Positions 1,023-23,807 of a stretch of 36,537 bases of DNA are shown here, in pieces. Positions within the stretch are counted from its first letter, which is position 1, and every line of letters begins with the position of its first letter. A program made the position numbers and the translations under genes. Under the pieces are notes generated by a model. The model worked only from the letters and a program-made list of their open reading frames with translations. It did not search any database and was not told the origin of the DNA. The DNA is from Anaerolineales bacterium (GTDB taxonomy: Bacteria; Chloroflexota; Anaerolineae; Anaerolineales; Villigracilaceae), in NCBI GenBank assembly GCA_022865905.1, contig JALHUM010000123.1:1-36537 (forward strand), given 5' to 3'.

Positions 1023-2672
1023 GTGGGGATAATGCAAGACTCTTTACGATTGGAGCGGGATACATCGCGAACAAATTGCTGGTGCCTCACCCATGCTTTT
1101 GGTAAGTTAACCGTAAGTACGGTAGAAGACCCTATCGTTTTGGGCAAAGAGGGTGAAAGCTATCTCTTGTTCAAACTTAGTGGGGAAAATCGAAGAGAGG
1201 GCCGTCTTGTGACATCACCATCTTCCGGGGAATATCTCGTGGTCGTCCCTGCTAATTGGAAAATTTCACACCAAATCTCTGTTTCCTCTGAACAAATCGA
1301 CATGGAATCGTACCAGGCTTGCTGGCATGTTTTTGACACAACAGATAACAAAAAAATGGTTTTCTCCACTCCCAAAGGTGAGAAGAATATCCATTCCAAA
1401 TCCCCCCGATTTCGGATGATTGGTCCAAGTCTGAATGACGCAAGTTATATAGGGCCTCTCTTCGTCGAGAATCCTCCCCAAATCGGCACCCACGACATTA
1501 CAGATTGGAATGAGGTCGGAACGATCATCATCGGCGAAATTGGAGAAAGCCGATGGAGATCAGAAGTTCCTCTGACATTGGAAATTGCCATCCAAACTTT
1601 ACCTCCAGAAGCATTGGAGAGAGGAAGCGGATGGTATTTTCTAAGGTTCTATGACCAACATGACGATTTGATGGAAAGCCTCGATTTCAGATATGTCCGC
1701 GGCTTGAAAAAGATCAAAATGCCTCGTCCTCAGCCGTTTCCTCTTGAAGCGGGGCATGAGCTGACGTGTGTAGAAATTTTTCACGACCCCGAATGTACTT
1801 TCGAATCCGCTGATACGCTTTCAACTGATATTCGCATTGAACGTACAAACACTGGAACGGCATTATCTATCCCCCCGAATCCTGCATGCGACAAAACACG
1901 CTGGCGAATCAGTTGTGGTTCTGGCGCTAAAGTTAATATAACCATCTTGGTTGAAAGAATCTGGTGGAACATCGGAACCAAAATTGAAATACCATCTGCT
2001 TGGAAAGATCGGTTTGAGCCATTACCGAAAGATAGTTTTTCGGCCACATCCTATATTACATTATGGCTACGATTTCCTGCTCAACGCTGGGTCAAGAAAG
2101 TCGCAGTTGGTTTCCTGAGAGACCAAGCAAGAGAGTATCAAGTGGCCGTTATGGAGCAAACAGTCTGCATTCCCTTGCGCGAATTCGAGGTAAGGGACTT
2201 GCATCGCGACCATTTTCTACGGGTATGGCTTGAGCGTGGCGGAAAACAACATGAAGGTATAGTTGCGGTTGTTGCAGGTTTGCGCCCAGACTGGATAGGA
2301 TATGGGAGAAAGAAATCCGCTATAGCCGTAGCAATGATGCGTAAAGGCACTGGTGCGATGGAGATTAATGGATTCCCACTGACGGAATATTTCCAAAGAG
2401 CTCCATCTGAGGCACAACTCTTTTGGCGGCGTTTGCACGAACTCGAGCCAATACCTGCCATACTTTCGCAATTAGATGTTTCTCTTCGAGTAAGGGGAAG
2501 TAGTCCAAAAACAAAACGCCAATTGATGGCTGTTGCACATGCACTGGCTCATGCGCTCACGAACTACAAACCCGAACTGACTTCAATGCTGAAACGGGAA
2601 GGATTTGGAGGTGCGAGAGTCTCAAAATCAGCCTGTTTAGGCAAGGAGGGGTTGCTGAATGAATCCGATTGA
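1023..2672 (+). CDS. C-terminal piece: unassigned region plus uS9-like domain (up to 549 aa)
   Basis: Possible restart codons are GTG 1023 and ATG 1032; the latter follows a GAGGTGG ribosome-binding-like sequence. The first about 420 residues are beta-rich by eye and carry no motif I can name. From 2298 the sequence follows bacterial ribosomal protein S9 from start to end: YGRKKSAIA (S9: GRRKS..A), GTGAMEINGFPLTEYF (S9: GNGKI.IN.R.LEQYF), LDVSLRVRG (S9: LDLYITVKGG), HALAHALTNYKPEL (S9: HGITRALMEYDESL) and LKREGF (S9: LRKAGF). The S9 GGG..GQ loop is replaced by SSPKTKRQ, and the basic C-terminal tail is lost. Codon use is A/T-richer than the flanking genes. Confidence 0.6.
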   Translation: MGIMQDSLRLERDTSRTNCWCLTHAFGKLTVSTVEDPIVLGKEGESYLLFKLSGENRREGRLVTSPSSGEYLVVVPANWKISHQISVSSEQIDMESYQACWHVFDTTDNKKMVFSTPKGEKNIHSKSPRFRMIGPSLNDASYIGPLFVENPPQIGTHDITDWNEVGTIIIGEIGESRWRSEVPLTLEIAIQTLPPEALERGSGWYFLRFYDQHDDLMESLDFRYVRGLKKIKMPRPQPFPLEAGHELTCVEIFHDPECTFESADTLSTDIRIERTNTGTALSIPPNPACDKTRWRISCGSGAKVNITILVERIWWNIGTKIEIPSAWKDRFEPLPKDSFSATSYITLWLRFPAQRWVKKVAVGFLRDQAREYQVAVMEQTVCIPLREFEVRDLHRDHFLRVWLERGGKQHEGIVAVVAGLRPDWIGYGRKKSAIAVAMMRKGTGAMEINGFPLTEYFQRAPSEAQLFWRRLHELEPIPAILSQLDVSLRVRGSSPKTKRQLMAVAHALAHALTNYKPELTSMLKREGFGGARVSKSACLGKEGLLNESD

Positions 2673-13781: not shown

Positions 13782-14351
13782 CTAATTTGCGGGCTTGGCC
13801 CGTAAACGCCGCGCCAGAAGAATCACCATCACCAGCACCACCGCCAGGACGATCAATCCTGGAAGGCCGAACTCGTCCGCAAAGCCGGTTTTCGCCAGGG
13901 CGGTAGCTGTGACCATGGCGGTCGCCGTCTTATTGGCAATGGCTGTCTGGGTTGCCAGGAGAGCCATAGGATCCAGCGTCGAGGTCGCGGTCGAGGCGGC
14001 AGTCGCCAGGGCTACCACCGGCGTCGGGCTGAGCGTGGGCTTAGGGGTATTGGTGGCCGTGGCCAGTGGACTAGGGAGCGCGGTCGGCGACCAGACTGCT
14101 ACCTCAGCCGTCTGGGTCATCGCTTGAGCGACCTGCGCATTCTGTGCCTGGATGGTCGCCTCTTGTGCAACGGTGGCAGCCTTCTGCCGGGGCAGGATGA
14201 CCAGCGCATACACGGCCATGAAAGCAATGGTTAGGAATACGATTCCTGCCAGGATGCCTGCCGCAATGATGAAAGTGCGATTATTAGATTCCTCCTTCAA
14301 GGGAGGCGTAGAATCGCCACTCAGATTGAGATCGTCGCTTTGGTCTAACAT
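13782..14351 (-). CDS. Small bitopic protein with LAKTG sorting-type C-terminus
   Basis: The 189-residue protein has a cytoplasmic N-terminus, one helix at about 26-52, a long Ala/Thr/Pro-rich outer region (ATATNTPKPTLSPTP), and an end that reads LAKTGF, a second hydrophobic helix and RRLRAK. That tripartite end is the layout of sortase substrates. LAxTG is the form known for class E sortases, while LPxTG is the canonical one. No sortase gene is in the window. ATG 14351 has GAGGAGGA upstream. A -10 TATAAT lies at 14375-14370, so it can be transcribed apart from the operon behind it. Function unknown. Confidence 0.65.
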   Translation of the reverse strand: MLDQSDDLNLSGDSTPPLKEESNNRTFIIAAGILAGIVFLTIAFMAVYALVILPRQKAATVAQEATIQAQNAQVAQAMTQTAEVAVWSPTALPSPLATATNTPKPTLSPTPVVALATAASTATSTLDPMALLATQTAIANKTATAMVTATALAKTGFADEFGLPGLIVLAVVLVMVILLARRLRAKPAN

Positions 14352-14369
14352 CGCTTCCTCCTCGCTTGA

Positions 14370-14375
14370 ATTATA
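14370..14375 (-). promoter_or_regulatory. -10 box upstream of the LAKTG protein
   Basis: A perfect TATAAT on the minus strand directly follows the stop codon of the preceding gene and lies 18 bases before ATG 14351. No convincing -35 is visible. Confidence 0.4.
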
Positions 14376-15431
14376 TCACCCCAGCACTTCCAAGTTGGCC
14401 AGTGGAACGGTGATTTGTTCGCCGCCTTCCAGGCGCACCTCGCCAGCCGGCAGGCGCAAGCCATTGGGCATGGCCGTCAGGCCTGGCAACAGCGTCACCA
14501 GCGTGCCCACCCGGCCGGCATCAGGCGCCCGAACCAGCCGCACCTGCTGGCCTGAGGCAAAGGACTCCACGTGGCGCGGCTGCGGCGCTTCTTCAGAAAC
14601 GGGCAGGGGAATGATGATTTCAGGCCGCGCGCCAGTGTAGCAATTGTAAGGTTCTCCATTCGCCGTCACTTCGCGCTTGGAATTGGTGGTCAGGAGCCGG
14701 TAAGCAGCTGCGTTCATCGCCCGGCGGTCGAACCCGTCGAGCACCACCACCGGGTAGCTTATCTGCATGGCGAGCGGCAGCAGCGCCGACGAGATACTAC
14801 CCAGGATCAAGCCGCGCACCGGCAACTCGTTTGCCGCTCGCAAGGCCGCCGCGTCGCTACAGGTGCCGCACAACAGCACCGAGCCGCGCAGGCTGACATC
14901 TATCCGGTCGGCGGTTAACGGATCGCCGGGCGAAGAAAGCAAGGGGAGCATCAGCCCAACGTCCACGCGGCCGTTGCCCCATACACCCTCGATGAGGGCG
15001 CCGTTCATCGTGATCTCTGCGCCCCGTTCCGGGATAAGGCGGGTGACGACCCCGGGCAGCCCGGCGCGCAGCTCGTACGTTCCCTCGCCGACCTCCAGCA
15101 GGATCTGCCCGCTTCCCACTGCCACCACGCGCCCGCTGCGCGGCGAGCGTACGTTCTTTCGGAATAACCCGCCGCGCGCCGCAACGATCTGTCCCTCTTC
15201 GACGCGGTCGCCAGTCCGCACCTGCACCAGTGTGTCGGCGATCTCCTCCGAGACCCCCAGCCCGGCGACCACATCCAGCAAGATGTGTTCCTGCCCAAAA
15301 TTGGCTTCCGCGATCACGTCTACCGGCATGACCTTCTGATCCAGGCGGACCACCACCCGCCCCGGGATGGGCAGAAGCCGCTCGCGGCGGAGGGTGGTGA
15401 GGGGCAACACGTGGGCAACGGGTGCGAGCAT
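14376..15431 (-). CDS. Unassigned protein with barrel-sandwich (lipoyl/biotinyl-like) segment, MutL partner
   Basis: The start at 15431 is preferred over GTG/ATG codons further up because GGAGG lies eight to nine bases upstream, inside the 3' end of the MutL gene; the product has 351 residues. Residues about 75-105 read RVEEGQIVAARGGLFRKNVRSPRSGRVV, a barrel-sandwich-like hairpin similar to biotinyl/lipoyl domains but without a modifiable EAMK/ETxK lysine. The middle has SVLLCGTCSDAAALRAANEL and PVVVLDGF. The end has a KOW-like GRVGTLVTLLPG. No catalytic motif is evident. It lies five bases from MutL and probably works with it. Confidence 0.55.
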   Translation of the reverse strand: MLAPVAHVLPLTTLRRERLLPIPGRVVVRLDQKVMPVDVIAEANFGQEHILLDVVAGLGVSEEIADTLVQVRTGDRVEEGQIVAARGGLFRKNVRSPRSGRVVAVGSGQILLEVGEGTYELRAGLPGVVTRLIPERGAEITMNGALIEGVWGNGRVDVGLMLPLLSSPGDPLTADRIDVSLRGSVLLCGTCSDAAALRAANELPVRGLILGSISSALLPLAMQISYPVVVLDGFDRRAMNAAAYRLLTTNSKREVTANGEPYNCYTGARPEIIIPLPVSEEAPQPRHVESFASGQQVRLVRAPDAGRVGTLVTLLPGLTAMPNGLRLPAGEVRLEGGEQITVPLANLEVLG

Positions 15432-15436
15432 GGGGC

Positions 15437-17188
15437 CTAACCTCCAACCGTCCAAAGCCATTTCTTGAGCAGCTCGCGCCGGTGGGCCTGGTCGGCGGGG
15501 AAGCGCAGCGGGCGGCCGCGCCCATCCACGATCACGCCCATCGCCGTCCCGTTGACGGTCATGCTGCCGCCGAGGCCGGGGCCAAAGCCGACATCGGCAT
15601 GGTGGAGAGGCTCAAGGTACAGGCGGGCCGATTGGCCGATGGGCAAGGGCAGGATCTCCAGCGCGCCCGGCTTGACTTCCAGCCGGCTCTCGTTGCCGTT
15701 CTCGTAGACCAGTTGGGCGCGCAGAAGGGGCGTTCCAGGCCGGGAGGATGACAACGGCGAGACGACAGTCGCCAATCCGAGGAAGGCGCCCGATTCGAGC
15801 ACCTGGATTGGAAGGATCGCGTTCAGGTTGGCGGCCGCGCCCAGGGCCGGCAGAAGGTTATTCTGATCCAGGATCAAAGTGGTGACCCCGACCGGCTGGA
15901 TGGCATCCAGCAGGATCAGCAGACTCTGGCCCCGCGTGGGCACGTGGGTGATGGCGCTGCCTCCGGCCAGTATAGGTTCGAAATAGGGGGTCATGCCGGG
16001 CGCCAGCCGCCGGGCGCAGGGGGAGAAGTCTTTGCTCGCCGCGTTCATCGCCAGGTAAAGGGTCTGGCGGGCAAGGGCCTGTTCAAGGGCCAGGTCTTCA
16101 GCCGTTGCCGGGATGGAAGTTGGGTAAAGCGATTTCTGGTAGAGGTAATCTTGCACCACGTCGGCCGGGATGTCGAGCGGCAGCCAGCGGAGGATATCCT
16201 CCAGGCTGGTGTACCCCAGCAAACCGGAAAGCCCTTCGCCCAGGCCAAGCTGCGGATAGACGCCCAACGTCAGCTCGCCGCCGAACGAGGCGGCCACCGT
16301 TGCGTCCGTGGCGCCGATGTCAATGCCCAGGACACCCTTGCGGGGATCGTAGATCTGGCTGAGGAAGCGGATGATGCGCCCCTGAGCATAGGCCGTCGGC
16401 ATGAGGTTGCCGCCCGCCCAGGCCCCCAGTTCCTCCACGCCGCCGATCTGGTTCATGCGGATGTGGGCGTAGAGATCGGCCAGGATGCGTTGAGCAGGCA
16501 ACAGATCCTCGGTTTCGAGCGTAGGGCGTAGGTTCGCGCCGATGCTCAAGGAGGCAGTCAGCGACTTGAATGAAGCCTTGACTTCGGGGACGAGCGCCTG
16601 GTTCCCTGCGAACAAGAGCGCCGGGCGTTTATCTGGAGGCAGCAGGTAACAGGCCAGGCCGATGGTTTCGAGGATGCGTTGCATCGATCGCGTGGCGCCG
16701 CCGTCGGTGCCTCCAGCAACCAGGATGAGGTCTGGGCGCAGGCGCAGGATGTTGTCAATCTGTTCCTCCGGCTTGCGCCGGTCGTTCATGCCGATGGCCT
16801 CGACCACCCGTGTGTAAGTGGTACGCGCCAACCGCTGGGCGCTCTCGAAGGAGACATCTGCTAGGAGGCCGACAACAACCGTTTTGATGGCCGGCCCAGC
16901 CGAGATCGTAGCCGCGAATGTATCCACCCCGCTGCCGCCCTGTGAGGGGATGATCAGGCGCAGGTTGGTATCCAACAGCGTCCGGCCAGTGACCGCCTCC
17001 AGATTCCTGATGGCCTGGTGCACGCCCTCGCCGACGTTCTTGAACGGCGCGATGGCAGTGGACGCTGCCTGACCGGAGGCGATGAAGCGATAATAGCCTT
17101 CGACCACGTCGAAGTGCGTGGCACGCGTTGTGGCGGCGCCAACATCTACAACCAGGAGGGAGTCTGCGTCAACCAGCGAGGTAGGCAT
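15437..17188 (-). CDS. MutL/GlmL-family ASKHA protein
   Basis: The 583-residue protein carries two ASKHA phosphate-loop signatures: LLVVDVGAATTRATHFDVVEG at the start and GVLGIDIGATDATVAASFGG in the middle. It also has LVAGGTDGGATRSM and PILAGGSAITHVP. This is the pattern of the MutL family, whose best-known members sit between the glutamate mutase genes glmS and glmE and are thought to act in repair or assembly of B12 mutases. No glutamate mutase is here, but a B12-binding mutase subunit and MeaB lie divergently at 22308-23807. It sits in a tight operon with membrane and zinc-ribbon proteins, suggesting a different or added role. Confidence 0.8.
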   Translation of the reverse strand: MPTSLVDADSLLVVDVGAATTRATHFDVVEGYYRFIASGQAASTAIAPFKNVGEGVHQAIRNLEAVTGRTLLDTNLRLIIPSQGGSGVDTFAATISAGPAIKTVVVGLLADVSFESAQRLARTTYTRVVEAIGMNDRRKPEEQIDNILRLRPDLILVAGGTDGGATRSMQRILETIGLACYLLPPDKRPALLFAGNQALVPEVKASFKSLTASLSIGANLRPTLETEDLLPAQRILADLYAHIRMNQIGGVEELGAWAGGNLMPTAYAQGRIIRFLSQIYDPRKGVLGIDIGATDATVAASFGGELTLGVYPQLGLGEGLSGLLGYTSLEDILRWLPLDIPADVVQDYLYQKSLYPTSIPATAEDLALEQALARQTLYLAMNAASKDFSPCARRLAPGMTPYFEPILAGGSAITHVPTRGQSLLILLDAIQPVGVTTLILDQNNLLPALGAAANLNAILPIQVLESGAFLGLATVVSPLSSSRPGTPLLRAQLVYENGNESRLEVKPGALEILPLPIGQSARLYLEPLHHADVGFGPGLGGSMTVNGTAMGVIVDGRGRPLRFPADQAHRRELLKKWLWTVGG

Positions 17189-17194
17189 AACCGT

Positions 17195-17869
17195 CTATAA
17201 AAAAGATGCGATGAAACTCCACAAGAAGCTCAAGCGTTCGACCAGGGCGGTCATGGCGGAGGCGTAGATCCCCGCGAACAGGACGCCAAAAGTGATCGCG
17301 ATGAAAACCTTGCCGATCCCGCCCAGGATATCTACCAGACGATTGCCCTGCGGGCCGCTTGGGGTGGCTTTGGCGCTGAAGTGGAAATAGACCAGCGTGG
17401 TCAGCGTGCCGACCAGGATAATGCTGGCCTCGAAGATGCGTTCGGAAACGCTGCCTCCCGTTTTGAGGTCGAAGAGGTTGATCGAGGCGCGGGTCTGCGG
17501 GAGGAGCGTGCCCAACACCGCGCCGCCCACCGCTACCGCCGCGCCTGCGCCGACCATGAAGGCCATAGCCGGGTTGCCCAGGTGGGCTGTGCGCGGCGAG
17601 AGTTTCATGAGTAGCAACATCCCTAAGAGGAGTGGAACAAGGGATAGGGTGCGCTCCAGCATATCCCCGTAGATCAAGGGCATGAAAAGCTTCGGCCACA
17701 GCACCTGGTGCCAGGCCACCGCAGCCGTGTATCCGGCCGAAACGCCAATGAAGATATAGATTGCCAGTCGGAAGAGTGGGTTATCACCCACCAGGTAGCT
17801 CAACACCAACAGCGTGAAGATGAAACTCACAATAGCCGTGACGAAATCCAGATTTATCCCGTCGGGCAT
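17195..17869 (-). CDS. Polytopic membrane protein of the MutL operon (224 aa)
   Basis: Six or so hydrophobic helices cover nearly the whole length (for example FIFTLLVLSYLV, LVPLLLGMLLLMKL, AFMVGAGAAVAVGGAVLGTLL, ASIILVGTLTTLVYF, ITFGVLFAGIYASAMTALV). No motif of a known transporter is visible. It lies six bases before MutL and two bases after the zinc-ribbon gene, so all are probably co-transcribed. Function unknown. Confidence 0.7.
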   Translation of the reverse strand: MPDGINLDFVTAIVSFIFTLLVLSYLVGDNPLFRLAIYIFIGVSAGYTAAVAWHQVLWPKLFMPLIYGDMLERTLSLVPLLLGMLLLMKLSPRTAHLGNPAMAFMVGAGAAVAVGGAVLGTLLPQTRASINLFDLKTGGSVSERIFEASIILVGTLTTLVYFHFSAKATPSGPQGNRLVDILGGIGKVFIAITFGVLFAGIYASAMTALVERLSFLWSFIASFL

Positions 17870-17871
17870 CG

Positions 17872-20487
17872 CTACGCCCCTTCCTCTGTCTTGCTCCGGC
17901 GGGCGCGCCAGGCAGCGATTGCGCTCGACAAGCCACCAACCAGGATCATCACCTCAGCCAGGAACAGTCCGGCGCTGAAGGCGTCCCAGTAGCGCCGCGT
18001 CAGACCCACGCCCTGGAAGACCTGTTCGTTGGCCTGCTCGTAAGCTTTTCCACCCGCCAGGCCGGTCACCAGGCCTTTGATCTGTCCCGAATCATAATAA
18101 GGCCGGATCATGGGTTCCGCCTGTGCAGAGATGACCATGATCATCGGCGCAGTGTTCAGGTAATGCCCGGCCTGTTCGATCCAGGTGCGGCCGGTGTCGG
18201 CGTTATCGGTCAAAACGAGAACGGCAGCAAAATCGCTTAGATCCTGGACACCCTGGAGCGTCGGCGTCTGCCAGGCGGGGGCGCCCTCGAGGGTGTAAGT
18301 TGCAGCCGCTGGCGGATCCTCGGCAAAACCGAGTATGCCAGCCGGGCCTCCGGCCAGATAGCCCAGGTTTACATATTCCGGCGGGGTCGGGAGCCTCTTC
18401 ATGAAAGAGTCAGCCAGGATCGGGCCGGTTGGCGAGGTGGAGAGTATCGCCAGACGAGGGCCTTTAAAGAGCAGGTGTTCGATCACCGGCGCAGCCGCCG
18501 CCTCCAACTCGCCGGAGAGCGCCGGTTCGTAATCGAAGACCATGAGAACTGACGGATTGGCCCTTAAGCCGTTGATCAGGCCCCTGGTCGTGCTCAACTC
18601 GGAAGGATAGACAACCCCAGGGACGGTCTGGATACCGGTCGCGAGCGGCAGGCCTACGGCCAGGATCAACACCAGGGCAATGATCCAGCGCAGGAGGCTG
18701 GTAGAGCGCAGGCGCGTCTGGCCAGACAAAGGACGGGGTTCGCTTTCTGCGGCCACCAGGCGCTCCAGGCTGGCTGCGTGACGCTGCTGGCTCTCCGTCA
18801 TCTGGAGCTTGGCGGAGTAGGCCTGCGGCTTGCGCAGCGCTCCCAGCCCGGGGCTGAGGGGGAGCACACCGCTCAATCCGGCCAGCGGTCCCCCGATGGC
18901 GGCCTCCTCTTTCTCTTCCTCTTGCGGGGCCTTGCTCTCGGCCATCACCGCCTCGACCGGGCGCATGGCCTGCACCCAGGAGGGCAGTTCTGCCGGCGCG
19001 ATCTCTGGCTTCTCGGCCGCCCCGGCGGGAGCTTTCTTCTCGCCCCTTTCCGGCTTCAGCATGGATAACCAATCCGGAGTTTCCATCAGGAGGTTCGCCT
19101 CGCGCTCGCCTGCTGGCAGAGCTGCCTCTTCCAGGGCGGCAGGTGAGGGGACTTCAGCCGGGGCAGCGCCCTCCTCGAACTCCGCCAGCCATTCGGGCAT
19201 GATTTTGCCTGGTTCTTCGACAGGCTTGCTTTCCGTTGGGCTGGCAAAGGCCGGTGCAGCCGGTTCTTCTTGCGCGGGGGGTGCCTCTGTCTCGAATTTC
19301 GCCAACCAATCGGGGTTCTCCTCAGCAGGAGGCTTCGTTTCGGGTGTGAAGGAGGGTTCGGGTGTGAAGATCGAGACGGCCGGTTTTTCTGTTTCCTTGG
19401 GGACAATTGGAGTCAAGTTCGCAGGCCAGTCGGGCGTTTCTGCCGGAGGCGCAGGCTCTGGCGTTGGTTTCTCCTTGGGAGCAGCCGCCTCAAAGACAGC
19501 GCCCGGCGCAGGCGGTTTCGCCTCTTCCGCAAAGGTGCTCGCCTGAAGTCCCGCCAACCAATCTGGCGATTCCTCGAAAGGTACATCAATGTGCGGAAAT
19601 TCACGCGTCGGCGTTTTGGATTCAGCCTGCAGCTTCATCAGCCAATCGGGAAGCTCCTCAGAGGGTGCAGACTTCGGACCGGTTGGCGGTACAGCCGAGC
19701 CTTTCTCAGGCTCGGCTTGGAGGCCAGCCAACCAGGTGGGTAGTTCTTCAGGGGGCTTTGCTTCAGCGGGGGCGGCCTGGATGTGGCCAAGTCTGGCAGG
19801 CGCAGGCTCGCTTTTCTGATCAGGAAACCAATCCGGCAGGCCTTCCAAATTTGCCGAGGCTGTCGGCTTAGATTCTGGCGGGAAGGGCGGCGCTCCACCG
19901 GCCGTTGGCGCGGGCTTTTCTTTCTCCTCCTGGCTCAAGCGTCCCAGCCAGTCCGTGCCTTCCGATGGTGCGATAGGCTCCTCCTCGGCAGGCGTCCCTG
20001 GCTGGATTGGAGATTTGTCGCGGATACTTGCAAGCCAATCCGGTACTTTCTCTTCCTCCTTAGCGCCGGCCTCCAGGCCGGATAACCAATCGGGCAGTTT
20101 TACGTCTACTGGCTGCGGGGCAGATTCCGCTCCGGTTGGGAACGGCCAGCCCTCGTCCGCGAAAGGTTTCGCTGGCTGCGCCAGGGGAGTCTGGCTATCC
20201 TGATCACGCAAGTCGCGCAGCCAGGAGGGCAGGGCGCGTTCCAGTTCGGCGGTATTCTCTCTGGTCGGTACGTCGCCAGCTTGGATGGATTCTGGCTCCG
20301 CAAAAGGCGCGGCGCCTCTTTTCATCTCAGACGTTCTTTGCTCTACCGGCTCCTCACCAGGATAGATCTGGGGGCGGTTATCGGGCGAAGAGGCCAACAG
20401 CGGCTTCAGCCGCGCCCCGCAAAACGCACACTTCTCCAATTCGTCGGAGTTGGGTTTGCCGCACATCGGGCAGCGCAGATCGGCCAT
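17872..20487 (-). CDS. Zinc-ribbon protein with about 13 PDWL-type repeats and two membrane helices
   Basis: The 871-residue protein opens with a zinc ribbon, CPMCGKPNSDELEKCAFCG. A Pro/Glu/Ala-rich, probably disordered region to about residue 500 carries a repeated short motif [LSTNVM]-P-[DSTE]-W-[LFV]-x-x-[LFMI]: LPSWLRDL, LPDWLSGL, VPDWLASI, LPTWLAGL, LPDWLMKL, SPDWLAGL, NPDWLAKF, MPEWLAEF, TPDWLSML, LPSWVQAM and others. A GPLAGLSGVLPL segment follows, then a helix (WIIALVLILAVGLPLATGI), an outer domain of about 200 residues and a final helix near the C-terminus. The start is ATG 20487, preceded by a G-rich site. The repeats look like docking motifs; the partner is unknown. Confidence 0.75.
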   Translation of the reverse strand: MADLRCPMCGKPNSDELEKCAFCGARLKPLLASSPDNRPQIYPGEEPVEQRTSEMKRGAAPFAEPESIQAGDVPTRENTAELERALPSWLRDLRDQDSQTPLAQPAKPFADEGWPFPTGAESAPQPVDVKLPDWLSGLEAGAKEEEKVPDWLASIRDKSPIQPGTPAEEEPIAPSEGTDWLGRLSQEEKEKPAPTAGGAPPFPPESKPTASANLEGLPDWFPDQKSEPAPARLGHIQAAPAEAKPPEELPTWLAGLQAEPEKGSAVPPTGPKSAPSEELPDWLMKLQAESKTPTREFPHIDVPFEESPDWLAGLQASTFAEEAKPPAPGAVFEAAAPKEKPTPEPAPPAETPDWPANLTPIVPKETEKPAVSIFTPEPSFTPETKPPAEENPDWLAKFETEAPPAQEEPAAPAFASPTESKPVEEPGKIMPEWLAEFEEGAAPAEVPSPAALEEAALPAGEREANLLMETPDWLSMLKPERGEKKAPAGAAEKPEIAPAELPSWVQAMRPVEAVMAESKAPQEEEKEEAAIGGPLAGLSGVLPLSPGLGALRKPQAYSAKLQMTESQQRHAASLERLVAAESEPRPLSGQTRLRSTSLLRWIIALVLILAVGLPLATGIQTVPGVVYPSELSTTRGLINGLRANPSVLMVFDYEPALSGELEAAAAPVIEHLLFKGPRLAILSTSPTGPILADSFMKRLPTPPEYVNLGYLAGGPAGILGFAEDPPAAATYTLEGAPAWQTPTLQGVQDLSDFAAVLVLTDNADTGRTWIEQAGHYLNTAPMIMVISAQAEPMIRPYYDSGQIKGLVTGLAGGKAYEQANEQVFQGVGLTRRYWDAFSAGLFLAEVMILVGGLSSAIAAWRARRSKTEEGA

Positions 20488-21134
20488 CACTTTCCCCCTC
20501 TCGAGGGATCGCTCCCGTAGGGCCGGTCAGCGCCAAACAGGACGCGCAGGCCGGTGGTCAGCGAACCCAGGGCAACGCCAATCAGGATGCCGCGCGCCCC
20601 GGCCGCCGCCAGTACCTGGGCGATGAACGGCCGGATCAGGTCGCCCAAGATCGGCACGTTGCCAACATATGGAAGCGGCACAGTGCCCAGCAAGATCAAT
20701 AAAGCTGTAACCAGGAAGATAACCGAAATCAGGTTGTTACGGCGGCGCAGCAGGCGGATGCTGGCATACATCAGCGTGACGGCCAGCATTGCCATCAAGC
20801 TGGTTTCGACCGGTAGTTGGATCGCCTTGAAGATCAGGGCCATCAGGGCGTGATCCGGCCGCAACCACAACCCAAGGATCAAAGTGGTGAGCAGGGAAAA
20901 TATCAGGATCAGGCTGTAAATCCCGCCTTTCTCTTTGCTGCGGATCTTATCGGTATGGACAGCCAAAAGGTTGAAGAGGCCAAGGAAAAGGGCAACCGCG
21001 GCCAGGATGATGACCCAATTCAGGATCGTGATACGCAGGTTGACCAGGATGGGAAGCTCGACAAAGTACCCCACCAGCATGATGAGGCCGGTGGCAATGG
21101 CAATGACGGCGGAAAACAGTCCCCTCAGCTTCAC
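20487..21134 (-). CDS. Polytopic membrane protein of the MutL operon (215 aa)
   Basis: Starts with GTG in a GTGA overlap with the preceding gene and ends sharing one base with the zinc-ribbon gene's ATG. About six helices are seen (AVIAIATGLIMLVGYFV, ILNWVIILAAVALFLGLFNLL, LILIFSLLTTLILGLWL, SLMAMLAVTLMYASIRLL, VIFLVTALLILLGTV, ILIGVALGSLTTGLRVLFG). No known motif is visible. The gene order and couplings imply a complex with its neighbours. Confidence 0.7.
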   Translation of the reverse strand: MKLRGLFSAVIAIATGLIMLVGYFVELPILVNLRITILNWVIILAAVALFLGLFNLLAVHTDKIRSKEKGGIYSLILIFSLLTTLILGLWLRPDHALMALIFKAIQLPVETSLMAMLAVTLMYASIRLLRRRNNLISVIFLVTALLILLGTVPLPYVGNVPILGDLIRPFIAQVLAAAGARGILIGVALGSLTTGLRVLFGADRPYGSDPSRGGK

Positions 21135-21874
21135 AGCACACCTGCCAGTTTCAGGAGGGCGCCCACGAGAATGCCGATTACGATCAGCCAGCGCAGGATG
21201 TCCTGGACGGTTAGGCTGGCGGAGTGGAAAGGCCTGGCCTTGAGGTATGCCCCGGCCGCGTACAACTCCTCGCCGATCAGTGGATCCTGCGCGCTGGCGT
21301 AAAGGATGGCCTGGGCCGTCAGATTATCGCTGCCTGCCAGTGTGGAGGTGTTTCCCCGTTCGGCGGTATCGGTCAATAATGCCACTTCGACGCCGAAGTT
21401 CCCCATCAGCACATTGGCTGAGAGGTTCTCATCCTGCATCACCGGCAGAACGCCTGCCGCGTAGGAGAAGGGGGTCAGGCCGGTCAGGCGTGCGGGGGTA
21501 GCGTCATATCCGGTCGAGAGGGCGGCTTGCCCGGAGGCCAGCAGCGCGTCCTGGGAGAGGATGGTTACCGCGCCGTCGCCGGAGGTCGCCACCGGAGGCC
21601 GGTCGCTGGCCGCAGTCAGCTCGGAGAGGCGGCGCAGCATTTCCAGGCCTGCCAGCTCGGCGGCGCTCTGCGGCGTGGTCAACCCGCCGCGTCCCAGCGA
21701 GATGTGCAGCCGGCTGCCTTCTTCTACCGCCAAGCCGATGGCCTTGCGCAGGCGGGCAAACGCCGGGATCTCTCGAAACGCCGGCGTGGACTTTCGGCGC
21801 AGGAACGCCAGTCCTGCCATCAGGATTGCGCTGAGAATGACCAGGCCAAAGCCGGCCAATCCGACCCAGTTCAC
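21131..21874 (-). CDS. Bitopic protein of the MutL operon (247 aa), DUF6754-like by memory
   Basis: GTG start in a GTGA overlap. A helix lies at about 5-25, followed by RLRKAIGLAVEEGSRLHISLGRGGL and a soluble alpha/beta region with DRPPVATSGDGAVTILSQDAL and GNFGVEVALLTDTAERG, and a C-terminal helix (ILRWLIVIGILVGALLKLAGVL). The pattern resembles a domain-of-unknown-function family that I believe is DUF6754; this should be treated as a guess. It probably anchors a soluble domain at the membrane in the same complex as its neighbours. Confidence 0.6.
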   Translation of the reverse strand: MNWVGLAGFGLVILSAILMAGLAFLRRKSTPAFREIPAFARLRKAIGLAVEEGSRLHISLGRGGLTTPQSAAELAGLEMLRRLSELTAASDRPPVATSGDGAVTILSQDALLASGQAALSTGYDATPARLTGLTPFSYAAGVLPVMQDENLSANVLMGNFGVEVALLTDTAERGNTSTLAGSDNLTAQAILYASAQDPLIGEELYAAGAYLKARPFHSASLTVQDILRWLIVIGILVGALLKLAGVL

Positions 21875-22270: not shown

Positions 22271-22276
22271 TATAAT
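22271..22276 (+). promoter_or_regulatory. -10 box of the B12-mutase subunit gene
   Basis: A perfect TATAAT. Transcription would start near 22283. This rules out the in-frame ATG at 22275, which overlaps the box, as the start. A clear -35 is not seen. Confidence 0.5.
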
Positions 22277-22307
22277 GCATTTGAAGATTCTTTCACGTGA
22301 GGGAACC

Positions 22308-22709
22308 ATGACTGAACGAAAAATCCGCGTTTTGGTCGCCAAGCCCGGTTTGGACGGTCACGACCGCGGCGCCAAGGTGGTCGCCCGAGCCCTTCGGGAT
22401 GCCGGCATGGAAGTCATTTACACCGGCCTGCGCCAGACCCCGGAGATGATCGCCGAGGCCGCGCTCCAGGAAGATGTGGACGCGGTTGGGCTTTCCATAC
22501 TCTCCGGCGCGCACATGGCGCTCGTCCCGCGCGTGTTCGAGCTGCTCAGGGCTAACGGTCAGGAGCTCGTCAAAGTTTTCCTGGGCGGCATCATCCCAGA
22601 CGAAGATGTACTCCTCTTGAAAAAGATGGGCGTTGCTGGCATTTACGGTCCCGGCACCTCTACCGACGATATTGTGCGGGATGTGCGCCAGGCTTTATTG
22701 GCGAAGTGA
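22308..22709 (+). CDS. Methylmalonyl-CoA mutase, B12-binding subunit
   Basis: The 133-residue cobalamin-binding domain has [10 protein letters not shown] at 15-24 (DxHxxG, with H18 as the cobalt ligand), SILSGAHM and GGIIPDED, the usual signatures of the small or C-terminal subunit of acyl-CoA mutases. It needs a catalytic large subunit that is not in the window. GAGGGA precedes the ATG at 22308. MeaB follows, which supports a role in methylmalonyl/succinyl-CoA exchange. Whether the partner is methylmalonyl-, ethylmalonyl- or isobutyryl-CoA mutase is undecided. Confidence 0.88.
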
Positions 22710-22714
22710 TGATT

Positions 22715-22759
22715 ACGTTTTACGTTTTCCGCTCTACGTGTTCGCAGTACGTAAAACGT
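22715..22759. repeat. 11-bp inverted repeat between mutase subunit and meaB
   Basis: ACGTTTTACGT at 22715-22725 and ACGTAAAACGT at 22749-22759 are reverse complements around a 23-base loop. No T-run follows. It may be a repeat element or mRNA-stability hairpin within the operon. Confidence 0.4.
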
Positions 22760-22778
22760 GAAGTGTAAGGATCCAGCG

Positions 22779-23807
22779 ATGAAATTGGTTGATGCCGTCC
22801 TTTCCAGCGACCGTCTGGCGCTCTCCCGCCTGCTGACCCAGGTAGAGAACGACACGCCCGAAGGCCGCGCCGCCCTCGATGCCCTCTTTCCCCACACCGG
22901 AAAGGCGCATCTGATCGGCGTGACCGGCGCACCTGGGACGGGGAAATCCTCGCTTGTCAACCAACTGGCGCTCTACTACCGCAAACAGACGGGAAAACGC
23001 GTCGCCGTCGTCGCCGTGGACCCGACCAGTCCTTTCACCGGCGGCGCGCTGCTCGGCGACCGGGTGCGGATGCGCGACCTGGCTGGCGATGCGGACGTGT
23101 TCATCCGCTCGATGGCCTCGCGCGGCTCGCTCGGAGGCCTGGCCCACGCAACGGCGGCCCTATCGCAGGTCTTCGACGCGGCCGGCTACGAGATCATTTT
23201 CATCGAAACGGTCGGAGCGGGACAGGCGGAGGTGGACATCGCCCGCCTGGCGCACACCACGCTGGTGGTCGAGGCGCCGGGCTTCGGGGATGAGATCCAG
23301 GCCATCAAGGCCGGCATCCTGGAGATCGCCGACATCCTGGTGCTCAATAAAGCTGACCAGCCGGGCGTGGAAATCACCGAGCGCGCCCTGCGCGATATGC
23401 TCGAGATGGCGCATCCGGTGCGACGCATCTTCCAACATCATGGTAGCCTGATTTCGGGCTACCATCATGGCAAGGTTGAAACCCTCGATGCCCCTGTCAG
23501 TTTGCCTGAAAATCTATGGGTACCCCCGATCCTGCGCACCATCGCCATCCAGGAGACAGGCTCCGTCGAACTGGCCGAAGCCATTGCCCATCACAGGGAG
23601 CACCTGCGTCAGAGCGGAGACTGGTCGCGCCGCGAGCATGCCCGCCTGGAACGCGAGGTCGAGGCGTTGATCCAGGAGACTCTGGCGGCGCAATTCCGCG
23701 CCAACATCCAAGCAGCTTACTACGAGAAGGTGCTTGTTCAGGTTTTCGAGCACCAGCTCTCGCCGTGGGAGGCTGTCAAGGCCTTGCTGAATGGGAGGCA
23801 GACATGA
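22779..23807 (+). CDS. meaB: MeaB/ArgK-type GTPase, mutase chaperone
   Basis: This 342-residue G3E GTPase protects and reloads B12-dependent acyl-CoA mutases. Motifs: GVTGAPGTGKSSLVN around 48-61 (Walker A), VDPTSPFTGGALLGDRVRM (switch region typical of MeaB), IIFIETVGAGQAEVDI and NKADQPG. ATG 22779 with AAGGA upstream is favoured over the in-frame ATG at 22758. Its stop overlaps the next start (ATGA). Confidence 0.93.
   Translation: MKLVDAVLSSDRLALSRLLTQVENDTPEGRAALDALFPHTGKAHLIGVTGAPGTGKSSLVNQLALYYRKQTGKRVAVVAVDPTSPFTGGALLGDRVRMRDLAGDADVFIRSMASRGSLGGLAHATAALSQVFDAAGYEIIFIETVGAGQAEVDIARLAHTTLVVEAPGFGDEIQAIKAGILEIADILVLNKADQPGVEITERALRDMLEMAHPVRRIFQHHGSLISGYHHGKVETLDAPVSLPENLWVPPILRTIAIQETGSVELAEAIAHHREHLRQSGDWSRREHARLEREVEALIQETLAAQFRANIQAAYYEKVLVQVFEHQLSPWEAVKALLNGRQT

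Follow-up and report, generated by a model that had tools for sequence, protein, structure and literature searches.

A protein encoded in the window (the whole stretch of 36,537 nucleotides of Anaerolineales DNA analysed here) carries an array of short tryptophan motifs, and the same motif is found on the tail of an unlinked TPR protein. We argue from the array itself, the constraint on its motifs, the conserved operon that encodes it, the motif shared by the two families and the covariation of array size with the detectability of the TPR protein. The shared motif array suggests that both proteins would belong to one cell-organising assembly held by these motifs. With a probability of about 55%, we propose that the short-linear-motif array joins the membrane scaffold and the TPR protein in one assembly, through docking or sticker motifs.

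Layout of the membrane protein

The initial annotation had described a zinc-ribbon membrane protein here without giving its strand. The observation is confirmed, and the gene reads on the minus strand; the plus strand has seven stops. From the N to the C terminus, the protein consists of a zinc ribbon, a Pro/Ala/Glu-rich chain with the motifs, a transmembrane (TM) helix, an outer Rossmann-like domain, and a second TM helix:

17872-20490, minus strand: membrane protein gene with zinc ribbon and PxWL array (open reading frame of 872 residues, GTG start)
20398-20475, minus strand: zinc ribbon, residues 6-31 (CPMC...CAFC; sub-threshold Pfam match and two CxxC read directly)
18955-20235, minus strand: residues 86-512, a probably disordered chain rich in Pro, Ala and Glu that holds the 13 PxW[LVF]-type motifs (sequence count, composition, conservation)
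20209-20232, minus strand: first, positionally fixed motif LPSWLRDL(R), of the PxWLxxxR type (close to the N-terminus of most homologues within the order)
18946-18987, minus strand: LPSWVQAMRPVEAV, the last motif, fixed in position (consensus across the alignment of the order)
18628-18690, minus strand: TM helix 1, residues about 601-621 (hydropathy; helix 89-110 of the AlphaFold2 model)
17995-18603, minus strand: outer alpha/beta (Rossmann-like) domain, residues about 630-832 (AlphaFold2)
17917-17979, minus strand: TM helix 2, residues about 838-858 (hydropathy and AlphaFold2 model)

The N-terminal zinc ribbon named in the first description is borne out by its two CxxC knuckles (C7/C10 and C21/C24, in CPMC-x10-CAFC at residues 7-24), although it scores below the Pfam cut-offs (18.0 against 25 bits for PF13240, Zn_Ribbon_1, and 17.4 against 27 for PF13248). 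The knuckles are not universal in the family, as they are missing in one near-complete genome (G057) and in most sampled Chloroflexales. A membrane-anchored outer domain C-terminal to the array had also been read correctly: hydrophobic segments at residues 594-627 and 836-861 enclose a domain that AlphaFold2 models with a pLDDT of about 95-98 across most of its length. Comparison of this domain with PDB structures gave no match at E <= 0.001, and comparison with PDB sequences gave none; neither fold nor sequence thus gave a lead to its function. Because basic residues precede the first and follow the last hydrophobic segment, the positive-inside rule would place the array on the cytoplasmic side.

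The motif array and its constraint

Residues 80-515 contain 14 tryptophans, 13 of them in motif context (LPSWLRDL, LPDWLSGL, VPDWLASI, GTDWLGRL, LPDWFPDQ, LPTWLAGL, LPDWLMKL, SPDWLAGL, TPDWPANL, NPDWLAKF, MPEWLAEF, TPDWLSML, and LPSWVQAM, spaced 17-44 residues apart) and one, W115, outside. The count of about 13 copies first given holds for a slightly relaxed motif, whereas the exact expression that accompanied it, P[DSTE]W[LFV]xx[LFMI], has ten hits in residues 61-520. The possibility raised there, that the motif is no better than expected from composition, is answered by shuffling, since 20,000 shuffles of the same residues gave a mean of 0.013 matches and a maximum of 2. The array region is 18% Pro, 16% Ala and 15% Glu, and this composition, with poor alignment, points to a disordered chain. 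Single-motif peptides of the array are EELPDWLMKLQA, LPSWLRDLRDQ, and LPSWVQAMRPVEAV.

When the window protein is compared with two same-genus orthologues, identity is 77% in the motif cores and 45% in the rest of the chain, next to 77% in the zinc ribbon and 75% in the outer domain, and none of 2,000 permutations reached the observed motif-core conservation (p < 0.0005). By this sequence comparison, the motif cores are under purifying selection. No DNA-level tandem repeat was found within the array of the window gene, which rules out recent tandem duplication of DNA as its source; with cores so much better conserved than linkers, the copies are held by selection rather than by recent duplication. 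Unlike the window gene, the array is partly tandem-amplified in one other genome (G016, locus L011) and in Chloroflexales.

Across homologues, the motif copy number ranges from 0 to more than 60 and the spacing is irregular. Within the order of the source organism, the motif follows one logo and its copy number varies, as in docking-motif arrays, so that its conservation in homologues agrees with the initial annotation. Homologues without the motif, which had been named there as counter-evidence, did not turn up in this order, where nearly all homologues exceed composition and the one exception (L050) has a shortened frame, but in some other lineages the motifs of the homologues are few or absent. 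Standing above composition and conserved over its linkers, the array has the sequence properties of a multivalent short-linear-motif scaffold.

The motif copies are not all of one kind. The first (PxWLxxxR) and the last (LPSWVQAMRP) are fixed in position in most of the order, and the middle copies vary in number. The last motif, LPSWVQAMRPVEAV, is found in 48 of 102 homologues, including other classes, and the PxWLxxxR type is retained in several lineages with few motifs. Because the chemistry of these fixed motifs differs from that of the middle copies, which can expand, it is doubtful that the array serves a single partner, as had been suggested. In other classes, A, S or P takes the place of D before W, while P, W, and L stay.

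Other repeats were seen in individual homologues. The G003 orthologue (L004, 394-3744) has an in-frame ALSLSKGA repeat inside its array that looks like a translated short interspersed DNA repeat. The membrane protein of G219 (L168, 7781-10573, minus strand) has a repeated RPQ[RQ]KWDD in place of PxWL, plus one PPDWL; RPQ[RQ]KWDD was looked for in the TPR tail of the same genome and not found, so a parallel motif switch cannot be claimed.

A conserved operon in Chloroflexota

The membrane protein is encoded by gene 3 of a seven-gene operon (13782-21874, minus strand), the other members of which are:

21131-21874, minus strand: gene 1, DUF6754 membrane protein (PF20539, E 7.7e-25, 87.9 bits against a cut-off of 27; conserved order)
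20487-21134, minus strand: gene 2, multi-TM protein of 215 residues (open reading frame; conserved order)
17195-17869, minus strand: gene 4, multi-TM protein of 224 residues (open reading frame; conserved order)
15437-17188, minus strand: gene 5, GlmL/MutL-like ASKHA-family protein of 583 residues (PF13941, E 4e-59)
14376-15461, minus strand: gene 6, RnfC_N barrel-sandwich hybrid segment, 361 residues (PF13375, 27.1 bits, cut-off 25.6)
13782-14351, minus strand: gene 7, membrane protein of 189 residues with a Thr/Pro-rich middle (open reading frame; conserved order)

Gene 1 is a member of the DUF6754 family (PF20539). Our literature search returned no paper on DUF6754 and nothing on PDWL motifs with a zinc ribbon. 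A profile comparison of DUF6754 with the outer domain of the membrane protein detected no relation, which leaves the idea that they are paralogues unsupported. Gene 5 matches the GlmL/MutL family well over the PF13941 cut-off (201 against 27 bits); it differs from GlmL in that it falls far under the cut-off of the equivalog NF040745 (81.5 against 475 bits) and neighbours membrane proteins.

Orthologues of the membrane protein were found in 59 of 61 related genomes. Nearly every genome sampled from the source's order has operon genes 1-6, and mostly gene 7 too, in one and the same arrangement, and most of the operon core recurs in other Chloroflexota classes. In a search by MutL-like alignment, the named contigs with this gene were nearly all from Anaerolineales or other Chloroflexota. 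G180 and G075 retain the greater part of the operon core with zero motifs. At the other end of the range, the membrane homologues of three genomes of 1-3 contigs each, which we take to be Chloroflexus aurantiacus, Herpetosiphon, and Roseiflexus, hold 53, 44, and 23 motif matches.

Two other regions of the window are recorded here for completeness. Divergent from the operon with its GlmL-like gene 5, positions 22275-23807 (plus strand) encode a B12-binding mutase-like subunit (by reading) and a MeaB GTPase; among the loci compared, these lie beside the operon only in five related ones (L032, L033, L034, L037, and L041). At 1023-2672 (plus strand), residues 427-527 of a 548-residue frame match ribosomal protein S9, and the 426 residues ahead of that match could belong to a different gene or reflect a wrongly set start.

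A TPR protein as second motif carrier

The TPR protein, unlinked to the operon, adjoins ndk and was detected in nearly every genome of the source's order. Its tail carries the motif of the membrane protein, far above composition in nearly all homologues, and the motif logos of the two families are nearly identical. In the near-complete genome G057, a codon scan for P[DE]W[LIMV] returned only two same-strand clusters, which are these two genes. In the window's own genome, the PDWL clusters are the membrane protein gene and a contig with the TPR tail (C212); the TPR gene is split there between this contig and C173, and its tail motifs include IPDWLQAM and LPDWLKGI. The initial annotation had guessed at multivalent docking sites for another product of the operon. 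The multivalent sites hold up, the motifs being selected, of one logo and variable in copy number, but a partner within the operon is not supported, and the strongest lead is the unlinked TPR protein with its shared motif array.

The AlphaFold2 model of the full TPR protein has folded ends (residues 1-253 and 739-823) with a low-confidence tail between them. In-cis docking was not predicted, most variable PDWL copies having a pLDDT of about 39-48, and the model speaks against in-cis docking of the tail motifs, although with poorly aligned tails and binned pLDDT only this is a weak test.

Chloroflexales TPR tails carry PFSLEELGLSPEEI repeats (PFSLxxLGL) and almost no PxWL, against about 20-60 PxWL copies on the membrane proteins of the same group. 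One such tail (L177, 7430-12844) has more than 20 near-identical PFSLEELGLSPEEIAQLE repeats, and it is possible that these form an analogous docking array. Some genomes of family f38 have PDWM/PxWL motifs on the TPR tail, with no membrane protein or operon detected. The TPR match of G135 (L194, 6707-9313) runs into another C-terminal region, protease-like by eye, instead of a motif tail.

Covariation of array size with the TPR protein

Among 71 genomes, phylogenetic least squares relates larger membrane arrays to a detectable TPR protein (p = 3e-4). The same analysis without G019, G350, and G371 gives p = 6e-7, a value that calls for careful reading because the exclusion was chosen before these genomes were checked and removed all, and only, the array-rich genomes scored as TPR-less. 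When checked, G019 proved to encode the TPR tail, truncated where a contig starts, and G371 had ndk at a contig edge; G350 was without ndk. An absent TPR protein here means one not detectable by the TPR profile, and the search missed the divergent TPR proteins of G180 and G227, which lie beside ndk and are tail-less. The statement that the array follows TPR presence was corrected on account of the cut G019 gene and of these two genomes.

In G325 and G343, the ndk-linked protein is a short remnant with one motif, and in G075 and G129 a divergent ndk-adjacent protein has no motifs and its kinship to the TPR family is uncertain. The membrane arrays of G180, G227, G325, and G343, with G075 as an uncertain case, have 0-3 motifs; a small or absent array on one protein tends to be matched by one on the other. 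Three genomes (G073, G353, and G378) have the TPR protein and 0-1 membrane motifs, and in four others (G211, G242, G356, and G364) neither the TPR protein nor ndk was found. Within-family comparisons, which are secondary and not corrected for phylogeny, gave a Mann-Whitney p of 0.0015 and a Spearman coefficient of 0.45 (p = 0.03).

Discussion

In the reading that we prefer, the cytoplasmic tail of a membrane-anchored scaffold would carry the array as short linear motifs of the form [D/E][L/I/V]P[D]WLxx[L], each of them probably a short amphipathic helix capped by Pro-Asp at its N-terminus. The scaffold may sit in a conserved Chloroflexota envelope complex with two multi-TM proteins and the DUF6754, ASKHA-family, and RnfC_N-like proteins; from its family, the ASKHA gene suggests a nucleotide-driven conformational change somewhere in this complex. 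Because the same motif sits on the tail of the unlinked TPR protein, both proteins would enter one assembly, in which the motifs could either dock, multivalently, onto a receptor common to both or act as stickers for one another. The membrane complex would recruit or cluster the TPR protein, and the expandable tryptophan-motif array and the array-bearing TPR protein would build a common assembly at the cytoplasmic face. Against this two-protein model we count the Chloroflexales tail motif, the f38 tails without an operon, the three genomes with a TPR protein and almost no membrane motifs, and the negative in-cis AlphaFold2 result.

TPR domains are known peptide readers, and this one could itself be the reader: a network would form if its groove bound PDWL peptides from the membrane protein as well as from TPR tails, its own in cis or those of neighbouring molecules. 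The detection of the TPR protein in nearly every genome of the order and the array size that tracks this detectability would fit, but AlphaFold2 shows no in-cis docking of the variable motifs (within the limits given above), G180 and G227 keep a TPR domain without arrays, and the Chloroflexales tail motif is unlike the membrane motif, so we hold this version to be unlikely. Equally doubtful is an operon product as reader, for example the ASKHA or RnfC_N-like protein, which would also recruit the TPR protein through its copies. Strict operon conservation speaks for it, as does the PxWLxxxR type kept in several reduced-array lineages, as would follow from a core component requiring a fixed copy; in G180 and G075, nevertheless, most of the operon core remains where motifs are lacking altogether, and the operon is undetected in some genomes whose TPR tails bear motifs. 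Non-specific aromatic stickers in low-complexity chains, which would promote condensation or solubility near the membrane with no defined receptor, could explain the wide range of copy number, the irregular spacing, and the tandem amplification, and yet a specific motif of 5-7 residues with fixed P and W/L is common to two families, and P, W, and L stay in other classes even where the D before W changes; we assign this explanation a similarly low probability. Functionless low-complexity drift or a gene-model artefact is very improbable, since the shuffling, selection, and cross-family logo tests contradict it, although the array region is Pro/Ala/Glu rich and aligns poorly.

This operon, kept order-wide and with its core present across much of the phylum, has no described function. 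The short motif that its membrane protein shares with one identified protein outside the operon now makes it open to testing. Should docking be real, pull-downs with motif peptides could expose the assembly and, perhaps, a bacterial peptide-reader domain of a new kind. As the genome that we presume to be Chloroflexus aurantiacus has about 50 motif copies, a cultured organism would be available. More tentatively, one could imagine that Chloroflexota have a lineage-specific cell-organising matrix, made of the operon's membrane complex and a soluble TPR scaffold that share an expandable tryptophan code, with an undescribed peptide-binding reader domain.

The array is real, selected, and undescribed in the literature searched, and it works like multivalent motif scaffolds, with no homology shown. 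Endocytic adaptors with DPW, DPF or NPF arrays likewise have a disordered chain with many short aromatic motifs, which are read by appendage or EH domains; they resemble our array in this motif-rich chain, but are eukaryotic, use another motif, and have known readers. The Rubisco linkers EPYC1 and PYCO1 are disordered repeat chains whose sticker motifs give multivalency, and the PYCO1 stickers both oligomerise and bind the folded enzyme (PMC6265248, PMC10288592). The likeness lies in a disordered repeat chain with multivalent short sticker motifs, and we claim no homology: EPYC1 and PYCO1 are eukaryotic and soluble and their client is known, whereas the array described here is bacterial and membrane anchored, with a zinc ribbon and an outer domain.
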